IMG/VR virus record: IMGVR_UViG_3300046694_000162
Location: 1 to 38,386 of that record
Strand: one strand, 5' to 3'
Length of the DNA: 38,386 nucleotides
Origin: a virus
The translations under genes were made by a program, and so were the position numbers. The notes below the pieces were generated by a model. The model ran no database searches. It was not told the DNA's origin and was given only the letters and a program-made list of their open reading frames with translations. This document shows positions 23,931-32,581 of the stretch, piece by piece (the stretch's first letter is position 1; the number at the start of each line of letters is the position of its first letter).

Positions 23931-24257
23931 ATGACGCTTACGGAGGCGGTCGCAAACAAGCACCTGGTGCACTGGCTCGACAACGGCTTTGTGCGGACGC
24001 TGGAACCGCACTCTTTCGCGCAGCTGGCGGGCGGTCGGTCGGTCCTGATCGCGTTTCAGATTGCCGGTGGGCCTGCGCTCGAGGAGCCGTGTTGGAAGGT
24101 GGTCGACGCGACTGATCTGCTGACGATTGATGCTGTCGAGCGCTTTGGACAATGCCGGCCGATACCACGCCACCTGCAGGCGCTAGTGCATGTGACCTAC
24201 GCATCGGCGTCGCGCGCCGGCTCACCTGGTGCGAGCTTGGCCGTACCCCGGAGGTAG
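23931..24257 (+). CDS. small conserved protein of WYL-like type
   Basis: 108 residues starting at ATG 23931 with TTGAGAGG upstream. The pattern LTEAVANKHLVHWL, RTLEPHSFAQL, VLIAFQIAGG, WKVVDATDLL follows a widespread family of small proteins with 'EPH.YG ... L.AYQ.GG ... W..F.V' order, sometimes annotated as WYL-like. Function of the family is not established here. It points rightward between two leftward genes, and its last 61 bases lie antisense to the end of the cro-like gene. Confidence 0.6.
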   Translation: MTLTEAVANKHLVHWLDNGFVRTLEPHSFAQLAGGRSVLIAFQIAGGPALEEPCWKVVDATDLLTIDAVERFGQCRPIPRHLQALVHVTYASASRAGSPGASLAVPRR

Positions 24258-24460
24258 GCCCAGTCGACGTCGGGGCGCAAGTCCTCGCAGCGAACGGCAC
24301 CGCGCGACTCCCTGTCGATATTGATGCAGAGGTGGGCGCCGAGCTGCTGCTTGGCGCTGATGGCCTTGCGCAGGTAGCGCTCCGTCGTACCGCATGCGGT
24401 GCAGAACGCGGTGCGCGCTGCTTTATCGAGGCCGTTCAAATATGCGAGTAATTTGTCCAT
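24197..24460 (-). CDS. Cro-like repressor (YdaS family)
   Basis: 87 residues. MDKLLAYLNGLDKAARTAFC and CGTTERYLRKAISAKQQLG form the helix-turn-helix of YdaS/Cro-type proteins; INIDRESRGAVRCEDLRPD is the conserved C-terminal stretch. It is the first gene of the leftward early operon and starts 11 bases from operator 24471-24486. It would bind the same operators as the divergent repressor and favour lytic growth. Length is normal for the family. Confidence 0.85.
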   Translation of the reverse strand: MDKLLAYLNGLDKAARTAFCTACGTTERYLRKAISAKQQLGAHLCINIDRESRGAVRCEDLRPDVDWAYLRGTAKLAPGEPARDADA

Positions 24461-24468
24461 GGGAAAGC

Positions 24469-24512
24469 ATATTACTAAACGGTAATGAGGTTGGTCAATA
24501 CCATTTGGTGAT
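24469..24512 (-). promoter_or_regulatory. leftward early promoter-operator module (PL-like)
   Basis: On the minus strand an operator (ATCACCAAATGGTATT, 24512-24497) overlaps the -35 box TTGACC; after 17-18 bases comes TAATAT within a second operator (ATTACCGTTTAGTAAT, 24486-24471). Both operators follow ATTAC-N6-GTAAT. The module matches the rightward one at 25357-25400 at about 37 of 44 positions. Confidence 0.8.
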
Positions 24513-24546: not shown

Positions 24547-25011
24547 ATGGAAATTCAAGACATACGACGCGCACGGCTAGCGCAGTTGATCCGAGAGCGA
24601 TACGACGGCTCTCAAGCGCGGTTCGTTGATGAAACCGGCGAGAACCAGGGCGAGGTTTCTGGACTGTTGCGCACCAAGTCGTTCGGCGAACGTAAGGCAC
24701 GCAAGCTCGAGGCGAAATGCCAAGTGCCGGCCGGATGGCTCGACATCGAGGACGAGGAAGCAGCCCGCAACGCATTGCGGACTGATAAGGAACCAGCAGC
24801 GCACTCGACACTTCGACCGCTGCGCCCTGAGCTTACTGTTGTGGAAAACGTCGAGCCTCAGAGAATGGCTCTTGTGTATGTGACGCAGCGGGAGCTCGAT
24901 CTGCTTACGTTCTACCGCAGGGCTTCGGATATGGGTAAGAGCCTGGTCGAAACCGCAGCCGAATCGGCGGCAGGCGAGGAATCAGCGACGGGCTCCGCTC
25001 ACCAGTCGTAG
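24547..25011 (+). CDS. phage repressor (XRE/CI-like) without peptidase domain
   Basis: 154 residues. Residues 1-60 (ARLAQLIRERYDGSQARFVD, GEVSGLLRTKSFGERKARKL) form a helix-turn-helix of the type found in betaproteobacterial CI repressors, and CQVPAGWLDIED is the conserved end of that domain. The remaining 90 residues do not contain the S24 Ser/Lys protease pattern seen in CI or LexA. It is divergent from cro, with three operators between. Without self-cleavage, induction would have to come from another protein. Regulation through the operator at 24512-24527 is likely. Confidence 0.82.
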   Translation: MEIQDIRRARLAQLIRERYDGSQARFVDETGENQGEVSGLLRTKSFGERKARKLEAKCQVPAGWLDIEDEEAARNALRTDKEPAAHSTLRPLRPELTVVENVEPQRMALVYVTQRELDLLTFYRRASDMGKSLVETAAESAAGEESATGSAHQS

Positions 25012-25134
25012 CAACGGCTGCGCCTGCGCAGGATGCCTCTTCGCCATCGCCTGCGCCAGCTTTAACATCTCCGCACGTGCCTCAGGGTTCATCGCCCTGA
25101 GCGCCTCCTTCATCTCTCTGAAATACTGTTCCAC
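24982..25134 (-). CDS. 50-codon SOS-linked small protein, candidate antirepressor
   Basis: Starts at GTG 25134 with GCGGGGTGAGA upstream and encodes 50 residues: a charged helix (YFREMKEALRAMNPEARAEM) followed by LKLAQAMAKRHPAQAQPLLR. The amphipathic, codon-regular sequence looks coding. It lies 75 bases downstream of a perfect LexA box on the same strand, and its end overlaps the end of the repressor gene by 30 bases. In several phages a small LexA-controlled protein inactivates a non-cleavable repressor; that role here is inference. An alternative is that the LexA box serves a short RNA. Confidence 0.5.
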   Translation of the reverse strand: MEQYFREMKEALRAMNPEARAEMLKLAQAMAKRHPAQAQPLLRLVSGARR

Positions 25135-25209
25135 TTCTCACCCCGCAAGCGGTCGCATCGGCCTTTGCGCACCGCAACTTTTCTGTACGAAATATCCTAC
25201 ACAAAAATA

Positions 25210-25225
25210 CTGTATAAATATACAG
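25210..25225. promoter_or_regulatory. LexA box beside the repressor gene
   Basis: CTGTATAAATATACAG is a perfect CTG-N10-CAG SOS box with an all A/T core. It is the exact reverse complement of the box before imuA at 31369-31384. Both flanks extend the match by ATA. Confidence 0.85.
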
Positions 25226-25305
25226 TCTTTTTGAGTTTGTTAGATTTCTCGTGTGTCGGCGTCCGTGCGGAGCACGATGCATATACGCAACGTACGTACG
25301 ATCCA

Positions 25306-25329
25306 GCCGGCTAACCGCCGGTTTTTTTT
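25306..25329 (+). terminator. rightward intrinsic terminator before the early promoter
   Basis: CCGGC and GCCGG pair around a five-base loop and are followed by eight T residues. It would end repressor transcripts, or a short LexA-controlled rightward RNA of about 100 bases starting near 25226, and insulates the early promoter downstream. Confidence 0.8.
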
Positions 25330-25356: not shown

Positions 25357-25400
25357 ATTACCAAATGGTGTTGACGCCTATCATTACCGTTTAGTAATAT
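25357..25400 (+). promoter_or_regulatory. rightward early promoter-operator module (PR-like)
   Basis: Operator ATTACCAAATGGTGTT (25357-25372) overlaps the -35 box TTGACG (25371-25376); TAATAT (25395-25400, 18-base spacer) lies in operator ATTACCGTTTAGTAAT (25383-25398). The second operator is the exact inverted copy of 24471-24486. It drives the plus-strand early operon that starts at 25437. Confidence 0.82.
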
Positions 25401-29290: not shown

Positions 29291-30400
29291 ATGGGCCGTA
29301 AACCAACCAGAAACCTAAATCTTCCGCAGGGTATGCGTGCCAGGCATCGCGGCAAGTCTGGCACCTATTACACGGTCGAGGTGATCGGCGCGGACGGCAA
29401 GCGCAGCGAGAAGTCGGTTGGTAAGGACTACACCCAAGCGGTGATCGAGTGGGCAAAGCTCAATGGTACGCCCACCGTCGGCAAGGTCGTCCACTTCCGC
29501 CAGGCCGCCGAGCGGTATATGCGAGAGGTCCTCCCTAGCAAGGCACCGCGTACCCAAGAGGACAACCTCGACGAGCTCGCAATGCTCTACAAGTTCTTCG
29601 ACGATCCCCCTGCAGTGCTTGACGACATCGAGCCGGTCCACATCCGGCAGTTCCTGGATTGGCGTGTCCAGTGGACAATCGAAAAGCGGAAGGCAGAAAA
29701 CAAAAAGCGGGTAGCAGCAGGCAAAGAGCCTCTTGATGTTCCCAAGAACCTCGGGCACGTGCGCGCGAATCGGGAAAAGGCCCTTTTCTCACACATCTGG
29801 AACTTCGCTCGAGAGAAGGGACTGACTAGGCTGACCAATCCCTGCGCTGGCATCAAAGGCTATGAAGAAGTGGCGCGCGGCGTGTACGTCGAGGATGAGA
29901 TTTACAACCTGGTGTGGACATGCGCCGGCCAGAAACTTCGGAATGCAATGGACCTGACGTACTTGATGGGGCAACGCAAGGCGGACGCGCTCAAGGTCAG
30001 CCTAACGGATCTCAAGGACGGAGCCGTGTGGGTCCAGCAGAACAAGACAGGCGCCAAGCTGCGCATCGCTATCGAGGGCGAGCTCGAGATCGTCATCGAC
30101 CGCATTCTTGCCGAGAACAAGGCCGAGAAGGTAACGAGCCTCAAACTAGTACCGATGAGCGAAGGCGAGTTCCGATATGCGTTCGACCAAGCTCGCGATA
30201 AGGCAGTCGCAATGCGGCCGGACCTTGAGAAGGAAATTCGTGAGTTCCAGTTCCGCGATCTGCGCGCGAAAGCTGGTACCGATAAGGAAGAAAAGGAAGG
30301 CATGGGAGCTGCAAAAGACCAGCTCGGCCACGCGTCCGAGACGATGACACGGACCTATGTCCGGCATCGGAAGGGCAAGCTGGTAACGCCCACAAGATGA
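29291..30400 (+). CDS. int: tyrosine integrase
   Basis: 369 residues. An arm-binding N-terminal domain (1-60) and core-binding domain precede the catalytic domain with R229 (GQRKADAL), K252, R325 in FRDLRAKAG, H347 (LGHASE) and Y356 (TMTRTYVR). The usual box II histidine (HxxR) is replaced by R322, as in a known subgroup of phage integrases. It stops at the first of several TTTTGCGGAAAA repeats, 70 bases from the tRNA-derived attP core, so it most likely integrates into a CAU-anticodon tRNA gene. Early-promoter transcription extends to here. Confidence 0.95.
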   Translation: MGRKPTRNLNLPQGMRARHRGKSGTYYTVEVIGADGKRSEKSVGKDYTQAVIEWAKLNGTPTVGKVVHFRQAAERYMREVLPSKAPRTQEDNLDELAMLYKFFDDPPAVLDDIEPVHIRQFLDWRVQWTIEKRKAENKKRVAAGKEPLDVPKNLGHVRANREKALFSHIWNFAREKGLTRLTNPCAGIKGYEEVARGVYVEDEIYNLVWTCAGQKLRNAMDLTYLMGQRKADALKVSLTDLKDGAVWVQQNKTGAKLRIAIEGELEIVIDRILAENKAEKVTSLKLVPMSEGEFRYAFDQARDKAVAMRPDLEKEIREFQFRDLRAKAGTDKEEKEGMGAAKDQLGHASETMTRTYVRHRKGKLVTPTR

Positions 30401-30431: not shown

Positions 30432-30470
30432 GCTTGAAGCGCAAAAAATGGCGTAAGTCCTTGATTTAAT

Positions 30471-30520
30471 TGGTAGGCCTCCCCGGAGTCGAACCGGGCA
30501 CCAACGGATTATGAGTCTGC
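30471..30520 (-). other. attP core: 3' part of a CAU-anticodon tRNA
   Basis: Read on the minus strand the segment has an anticodon loop CTCATAA, a variable region, a complete T arm (CCCGG TTCGACT CCGGG), the 3' acceptor strand and encoded CCA. The D arm and 5' acceptor are missing, so it is not a tRNA gene. Integration at this point would restore the host gene. The tRNA is Met or lysidine-type Ile2; the sequence around the loop looks more like Ile2. Confidence 0.85.
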
Positions 30521-30638: not shown

Positions 30639-31352
30639 TCAGGTTTGCTCGGCCAGCGAACCCTCGCCAGACCATACACGCGCGACCTGCGGCGCCCTGT
30701 GCTCTTGGGGGCGAGGACGGACTGCCTCTCCGATGTGCATCGGCAAGAATAGCGGCTCATCACGCCGAGGCCCCTGGCGCTTCACGAACTCGATCTCCAA
30801 CCCGCCAGCCTTCGGACGCAGGCCCAGGCGCAGCGGCGCAGGCGAAGGGTCCTGCGCGGCCGCGATCGGACGCATCATAAAGAACAGCGTTTCGCCGGCC
30901 TGAGCCGCCAGGTGCAGCCGCCTGAGACTGTCGCTCCGGATCTGGGTCTGCCAGAACAGCAGCGCACCGCAACTCCCGCTGCGCAGCACCTGCTCCGCGG
31001 CCCACAGTGCATCGGCCGTGCGATCAGCTCGCAACCAAAGCGCCACTGCCGGCGGTACGCCCATCGCGGCAAATGCTATCGCCTGCGGCGCATGAGGCGG
31101 CTGCAACAGCACGACCTTGCGGCTCGACGCAGCTGCCAGCGCGGGCGCCAGCAAGCGCATCTCGCCAATCCCTGGCTGCTGGACGAGCAAGTCAACCAGC
31201 GCTCCAGTTGGCCAGCCACCGCCAGGCAATAGGTTCGACAAACTCGCGTGGCCAGTGTCGACGCATCGAGTACGGCTGCGTCCTAGCTGCGATGCTCTCC
31301 AGAGTGAAGGATGAAGGGCCTCTAGCTCGGCCGCGGCTGTCGCTGTATTCAT
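30639..31352 (-). CDS. imuA: ImuA, SOS translesion synthesis protein
   Basis: 237 residues, full length for the family. EALHPSLWRASQLGRSRTRC, the loop LLPGGGWPTGALVDLL (41-56) and VQQPGIGEMRLL are diagnostic of Burkholderiales ImuA, a RecA-like protein. In bacteria ImuA works with ImuB and DnaE2 in mutagenic bypass of DNA damage. Neither partner is in this genome. A LexA box starts 17 bases before the start codon and overlaps a good promoter, so expression should follow DNA damage, when the phage itself may be induced. It lies next to attP, the usual place for cargo genes. Confidence 0.88.
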   Translation of the reverse strand: MNTATAAAELEALHPSLWRASQLGRSRTRCVDTGHASLSNLLPGGGWPTGALVDLLVQQPGIGEMRLLAPALAAASSRKVVLLQPPHAPQAIAFAAMGVPPAVALWLRADRTADALWAAEQVLRSGSCGALLFWQTQIRSDSLRRLHLAAQAGETLFFMMRPIAAAQDPSPAPLRLGLRPKAGGLEIEFVKRQGPRRDEPLFLPMHIGEAVRPRPQEHRAPQVARVWSGEGSLAEQT

Positions 31353-31368
31353 GTTAAATTCTCAAATA

Positions 31369-31384
31369 CTGTATATTTATACAG
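31369..31384. promoter_or_regulatory. LexA box of imuA
   Basis: CTGTATATTTATACAG is a perfect SOS box. It lies just downstream of the imuA -10 element, so LexA would block that promoter. Confidence 0.9.
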
Positions 31385-31411
31385 TATAGCGCGGCAAGGT
31401 TATCTTGTCGA
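31383..31411 (-). promoter_or_regulatory. imuA promoter
   Basis: On the minus strand TCGACA (31411-31406) and TATACT (31388-31383) are 17 bases apart, each one mismatch from consensus, and the -10 box runs into the LexA box. Confidence 0.7.
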
Positions 31412-32089: not shown

Positions 32090-32581
32090 ATGGCGATTGA
32101 CGTTTATCTGCAAATCGACGGCATCAAGGGCGAATCGGCCGACAGTCAGCACGCGGGCTGGATCGAATGCTCGTCAGTGAACTGGAAGCTACACCAGCCC
32201 AGGAGCGCGACGTCATCGACGGCCGGCGGGCACACCGCCGAACGCGCCGAGCTATCGGACGTGGCATTTACAAAGCTGGCTGACATGGCCTCGCCGATCC
32301 TTGCCCAGCACTGTGCGATGGGCAAGACGATTCCGAAAGCGAAGTTCGAGTTCTTCCGGGCGGACGGCCAGGGCACCCGTGTCAAGTACTACGAGGTCGA
32401 GCTGGACAACGTCGTCGTAGGTGAGGTGGCGCAGTCGGTGTCGGCCGGGATCGGGATGGTAGACCACATCGGCCTGAAATTCTCCAAGGTAAAATGGAAG
32501 TACACCCAGCAGAAGATCGCTGGCGGCGCCGGCGGGAATACCGCTGGCGGCTGGGACCTTGCCAGTAACCGGGTCGCTTGA
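32090..32581 (+). CDS. hcp: Hcp, type VI secretion tube/carrier protein
   Basis: 163 residues. The start MAIDVYLQIDGIKGESAD, the middle GGHTAERAEL and the end KVKWKYTQQKIAGGAGGNTA are diagnostic of the Hcp1 family in Burkholderiales. Hcp forms hexameric rings that stack into the T6SS tube, and the ring lumen carries small effectors. The gene has an ideal AAAGGAGG ribosome site. It is followed at once by an immunity gene and a Tae4-type effector, so it probably carries that effector. No other T6SS structural gene is in the phage, so a host apparatus would be needed. Confidence 0.93.
   Translation: MAIDVYLQIDGIKGESADSQHAGWIECSSVNWKLHQPRSATSSTAGGHTAERAELSDVAFTKLADMASPILAQHCAMGKTIPKAKFEFFRADGQGTRVKYYEVELDNVVVGEVAQSVSAGIGMVDHIGLKFSKVKWKYTQQKIAGGAGGNTAGGWDLASNRVA

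Follow-up and report, generated by a model that had tools for sequence, protein, structure and literature searches.

A small gene under a LexA box, convergent with a peptidase-less prophage repressor, is a candidate SOS-induced antirepressor gene

The stretch of DNA analysed here (the window; 38,386 nt, one entire virus record, IMGVR_UViG_3300046694_000162) carries a small conserved gene which is convergent with, and overlaps, the gene of a prophage repressor. We propose, with a probability of roughly 70%, that its 50-aa product is an SOS-induced antirepressor which mimics and poisons the oligomerisation hairpin of this repressor. Taken separately, it is very likely that the protein is an antirepressor of the adjoining repressor; that it acts by domain mimicry of the repressor hairpin is a reading to which we lean cautiously. 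A sequence-only reading of this DNA had suggested that the small protein may be a LexA-repressed antirepressor switch, and this is now the best-supported reading, based on the conservation of the ORF together with the box, the exchange against S24 peptidase and the co-variation with the repressor C-terminal domain (CTD). The LexA-controlled antirepressor mode itself is already known and the new sequence family most likely works like the known systems. The sequence family, its convergent overlapping arrangement and mimicry by a LexA-controlled phage antirepressor appear to be undescribed; the literature covered contains no description of this small-protein family.

The features are listed by their position in the window:
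24197–24460, minus strand: YdaS/Cro-like gene, first of the left operon (PF15943, E 6e-10)
24469–24512, minus strand: left operator/promoter, an 84% inverted copy of the right one
24547–25011, plus strand: repressor, 154 aa, with HTH domain (1–66), loop and C-terminal helical hairpin (114–125/128–142)
24982–25011: overlap of the two convergent reading frames, 30 nt
24982–25134, minus strand: small ORF, 50 aa (VEQYFREMKEALRAMNPEARAEMLKLAQAMAKRHPAQAQPLLRLVSGARR), GTG start, proposed antirepressor (conservation, dN/dS, AF2)
25135–25146, minus strand: ribosome-binding site GGGGTGAGAA before the GTG start, read directly
25194–25199, minus strand: -10-like hexamer TAGGAT
25208–25227: LexA (SOS) box TACTGTATAAATATACAGTC over the -35 region of the leftward promoter
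25305–25329, plus strand: intrinsic terminator, presumably of the repressor transcript
25357–25400, plus strand: right operator/promoter ATTACCAAATGGTGTTGACG...TTAGTAATAT
30639–31352, minus strand: imuA, a host gene (NF033429, E 2e-67)
31367–31386: second perfect LexA box, upstream of the host imuA
32090–32581, plus strand: hcp/tssD gene in the chromosomal flank, near imuA

The anatomy agrees with the sequence-only reading, which had described a 50-codon leftward ORF with a ribosome site, the last 30 bases of this ORF as antisense to the repressor 3′ end, and a perfect LexA box beyond that end facing the ORF. ORF and ribosome site were found as listed, the two frames overlap by 30 nt with both stops included, and the box lies at 25208–25227; the span given in that reading (24982–25225) stops at the box core, while the full box reaches 25227. 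Thirteen relatives with repressor and LexA box were found (L001–L010, L013, L027 and L028; L013 is a locus in a Massilia genome), which together with the window make up a set of 14 loci. Box and small ORF are both retained in all 14, far beyond chance, so that the loss of the ORF from relatives keeping the box, named earlier as one of the observations that would speak against the proposal, was not seen. The ORF starts with GTG, once with TTG, and has a G-rich purine stretch at its ribosome-binding site in 14/14 loci. Its variable columns fall on codon positions 1, 2 and 3 in the numbers 21, 16 and 34, and dN/dS values against the window of 0.02–0.25 indicate strong purifying selection, which also acts outside the repressor overlap (pN/pS 0.17 for codons 2–40). 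Every other frame on both strands is interrupted by stops across the alignment; apart from the small ORF, a low ratio was obtained for a single frame, which lies on the complementary strand and reads the same wobble positions. The impression of a coding-like sequence was thus borne out by dN/dS, third-position bias and frame controls, and a chance ORF was rejected. The small ORF is a real, constrained gene, for which AF2 modelled a protein of three helices (2–14, 17–33 and 35–46; mean pLDDT 80).

The LexA box reaches a score of 25.9 with the E. coli-box PWM, a value unreached by shuffles. CTGT-N8-ACAG occurs twice in the window (0.5 expected), and a 20-mer box with three mismatches or fewer likewise twice (0.00 expected). 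The -10-like hexamer conforms to TANNAT in all 14 loci and corresponds to the invariant columns A195, T196, T199 and A200 of our alignment A5; across the box, this alignment shows no conserved elements. It is therefore the leftward promoter that LexA most likely controls. A rightward promoter starting from the box was rejected, as conserved elements are missing on that side and a terminator lies between the box and the right operon. This terminator, whose T run is invariant in A5, presumably ends the repressor transcript, the 3′ UTR of which would then run antisense across the small gene in its entirety, promoter included. After the small ORF there is no good leftward terminator, just a weak candidate at 24575–24561. 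The two transcripts would thus be mutually antisense, and this may act as a second layer that sharpens the switch.

The second LexA box of the window was rejected as a phage element, since it sits at the host imuA. Judged by the nature of the genes, the prophage extends to about 30,400 and is followed by host genes. The sequence in the imuA promoter region (CTGTATATTTATACAG) is the reverse complement of the phage box, with an identical 16-bp box, so that a neighbouring chromosomal SOS gene carries the same 16-mer. The ORF at 29291–30400 presumably encodes an integrase, for which no NCBIfam match was obtained; beside it, positions 30470–30520 resemble a piece of a tRNA gene and are a possible attachment site, ARAGORN finding no complete tRNA there.

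The repressor had been described as devoid of an S24 peptidase domain, and this holds: it has no Pfam match at all and hence no S24 peptidase. Among 77 distinct repressors of its HTH-domain family, 38 carry Peptidase_S24, including L033, L034 and L011, whose HTHs (79%, 71% and 71% identical to that of the window repressor) are as close to it as those of several members of the small-ORF group. Neither LexA box nor small ORF was found at the loci of five S24 repressors with HTHs 66–79% identical (these three, L036 and L037). When searched with the small-protein profile, 18 loci yielded the ORF (E ≤ 5e-23), whereas no S24 locus did; four of the loci with small ORF (L029–L032) keep a diverged version (36–48% identical) without LexA box. 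The repressors of this family are thus either predicted to be self-cleaving or adjoined by the small gene, an exchange between the peptidase and the microprotein.

Searches with the small proteins and then with the repressor CTDs against 294 genomes of the host's family revealed a wider set of pairs. Repressors with several different HTHs share the C-terminal motif LVYVTxxELxLLTxYRxATxxGKxxI, and most of them have a convergent ORF of the small family over their stop region, overlapping by 24–111 nt. At four repressors the small-protein profile had missed the convergent ORF, but a similar one with LxLV at its end is present; beside four weak CTD hits no convergent small ORF was found. Convergent arrangement and overlap are retained in 33/33 pairs. 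Partial Mantel tests on 19 divergent pairs, with the DNA overlap excluded, gave a correlation of 0.43 between small protein and CTD given the DNA-binding domain (0/3000 permutations) and of 0.10 between small protein and DNA-binding domain given the CTD (p 0.12). At the level of sequence, the small protein therefore co-varies with the C-terminal and not with the DNA-binding domain of the repressor. Since the LexA box is missing in about 19 members of the family, SOS control is no family trait; judged by the box, it is limited to the clade of the window and one other lineage, the divergent pair L117 (same place as L105), which has a box of its own, unlike the other divergent pairs. An order-wide search with the small-protein profile returned the known locus and two weak matches; in L141, an HTH regulator, the hairpin forms the protein's own CTD. 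Nothing useful came from annotated phage records (small-protein query) or plasmids (locus query).

Several loci showed further arrangements. In L118, L119, L120, L121 and L123, two repressor-like genes, each with a hairpin CTD, lie in tandem, and a convergent small ORF comes behind the second one. In box-less pairs (L029–L032, L097 and L101) an Arc-like ribbon-helix-helix gene lies to the right of the small ORF, and the small-ORF promoter regions of L029, L030 and L032 have other conserved elements (TTCTTTTTGAGATATATT) in common, which makes another trigger likely. L045 (3001–4000) encodes a repressor relative with a different hairpin-like CTD; the product of its convergent ORF has PSLRLIVGG as its end, and 592 nt further on, behind an Arc-like gene, there is a LexA box. 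L099, L104 and L106 contain tandem small ORFs of the hairpin/LxLV type with no obvious repressor adjoining.

When restricted to close relatives, the initial profile comparison of small protein and repressor showed no signal, and more divergent pairs were therefore collected. With these, hhalign aligned residues 4–34 of the small proteins with about residues 114–144 of the repressor CTDs at a score of 21.0, albeit with a probability of just 47%, which fell to 8.5% and 33% when the sets were thinned or the settings changed. The controls scored up to 13.0 (120 column shuffles), 7.7 (reversed) and below 10 (other domains), whereas one of 60 seven-column block shuffles reached 23.0 and thus outscored the alignment. 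The helices modelled by AF2 (2–14/17–33 in the small protein, 114–125/128–142 in the repressor) lie in the same register. In addition, the small-protein profile directly matched the CTD of L141. Helical hairpins easily resemble each other; the likely target of the small protein is the repressor C-terminal hairpin, which it resembles. Domain mimicry is the simplest reading. A precedent is SinI of Bacillus subtilis, a small antirepressor in the form of a helical hairpin that imitates the one at the C-terminus of the HTH repressor SinR; this pair is chromosomal and controlled by Spo0A, unlike the pair of the window with its LexA box. The likeness to SinI/SinR (PDB code 1b0n) consists in the small helical hairpin proposed to mimic that of the repressor, and 1b0n_A is among the weak fold matches of the window repressor. 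SinI was absent from the PDB sequence matches of the small protein up to E 10, and Foldseek with its model gave no meaningful match and no solved relative.

From the observed anatomy, conservation, purifying selection, box, S24 exchange, CTD co-variation and profile similarity we infer LexA binding, SOS induction, and physical binding to the repressor with its effect. In the lysogen, host LexA on the box at 25208–25227 would silence the leftward promoter and the repressor would hold both operators; as these are inverted 44-nt copies of each other with 84% likeness, it is plausible that a repressor oligomer acts at both. Removal of LexA upon DNA damage would lead to synthesis of the small protein, the hairpin of which would be a stand-alone relative of the repressor C-terminal hairpin, presumably an oligomerisation domain. 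Mixed complexes with the CTD would break up the repressor oligomer, bind the operators more weakly than it does and so release both early promoters. This microprotein route would replace the RecA-driven self-cleavage used by the S24-bearing relatives.

Other explanations have to be weighed against this one. An antirepressor acting without mimicry could attach externally to the hairpin or to the HTH, in the way that SPC32H Ant binds the Rep CTD, or hand the repressor to a protease. The co-variation points to a partnership with the CTD and indicates no mode, and SPC32H Ant binds the tetramerisation domain of a Rep whose HTH is homologous (PMC9986798); the in-register profile similarity to the hairpin and the match to the C-terminal hairpin of L141, however, argue for mimicry, and we consider this alternative unlikely. 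Antisense or transcriptional interference, in which the leftward transcript, induced by SOS, acts as antisense RNA on the repressor mRNA, or its polymerase collides with the repressor gene or reads through it into the left operon, with the protein being secondary, would fit the convergent overlap kept in all 33 pairs, the lack of a good leftward terminator after the ORF (the weak one at 24575–24561 apart) and the location of the repressor terminator beyond the LexA box. It is improbable, as the amino-acid constraint on codons 2–40 would be pointless and the protein persists across unrelated DNA-binding domains, tracking the CTD.

The small protein might also strengthen or redirect repression as a co-repressor or modulator, as MOR (TP901-1) or Lxc (P1) do, which would agree with the obligate co-occurrence and with the absence of a LexA box from most of the divergent family members. 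In that case, however, LexA control would make lysogeny tighter once DNA is damaged; moreover, no other LexA box is seen in the prophage part of the window and the S24-bearing relatives do without the small gene, which renders this role quite improbable. Phages often place genes for host-directed proteins under LexA, and the small protein could be such a cell-division or recombination effector merely located beside the repressor, but its gene is exchanged together with the repressor CTD and the idea has very little probability.

Tum of phage 186 and AntC of N15 are LexA-controlled small antirepressors of repressors that are not self-cleaved, and Kim and Ryu (2013) reportedly described the same for SPC32H Ant of a Salmonella phage, with Rep not being self-cleaved. 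The Gifsy, Tum and AntC genes are not known to be convergent with and overlapping the repressor gene. The small gene shares with this class the box over its promoter and a proposed target repressor without self-cleaving S24. LexA-controlled antirepressors are established for GfoA/GftA (PMC3121763) and SPC32H Ant (PMC7380047). The SPC32H pair (PDB codes 5d4z and 5d50) resembles the proposed one in combining a small LexA-controlled antirepressor with a repressor that is not self-cleaved, and the HTH of Rep is homologous to that of the window repressor (E 7e-8), but this homology ends with the HTH domain and ant lies 14 kb from rep, whereas the small ORF overlaps the repressor. Ant acts on the C-terminal oligomerisation domain of Rep (PMC9986798); Ant (86 aa) and the small protein are unrelated by hhalign (probability 0.1, E 0.48). 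The Gifsy antirepressors GfoA, GfhA and GftA are likewise small, LexA-controlled and directed at repressors without self-cleavage, which are freed from DNA upon binding, but their genes lie outside the immunity region (PMC3121763). As had been supposed, the small protein is unlike known antirepressors in sequence: besides the missing relationship with Ant, its best PHROGs match is an Ant family at a non-significant E of 0.37 and its best Pfam match (0.011) an unrelated eukaryotic hinge domain. Inactivation of cI by small proteins is also on record for other triggers (PMC10432266, PMC11323111). In linear plasmid-like phages, Qtip and the TF-smORF modules provide small proteins which have no known relatives and disable the cI of the phage that encodes them; they share the target and the exchangeable trigger with the present family, but use a dedicated transcription factor instead of LexA, and the repressors studied are self-cleaving (PMC10432266).

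Our confidence is evenly divided on a wider proposition: repressor/microprotein pairs of a large and so far undescribed family would occur in Oxalobacteraceae prophages, the microprotein being a free-standing version of the repressor C-terminal hairpin, encoded convergently over the last repressor codons. It would have remained tied to this domain through swaps of DNA-binding domains and triggers and would have come under LexA on two or more occasions, and protein mimicry and mutual antisense would form a single switch. Related pairs are spread through viruses of this one soil-bacterial family. Peptidase-less repressors are common in prophages and are usually annotated without any idea of how they are switched off; the rule that a convergent small ORF ending in LxLV lies over the repressor stop would identify the partner of such repressors in some thirty phages. 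That S24 peptidase and microprotein replace each other indicates that phages swap induction modules, and family members without LexA box should answer other triggers, by which SOS-independent induction becomes testable.
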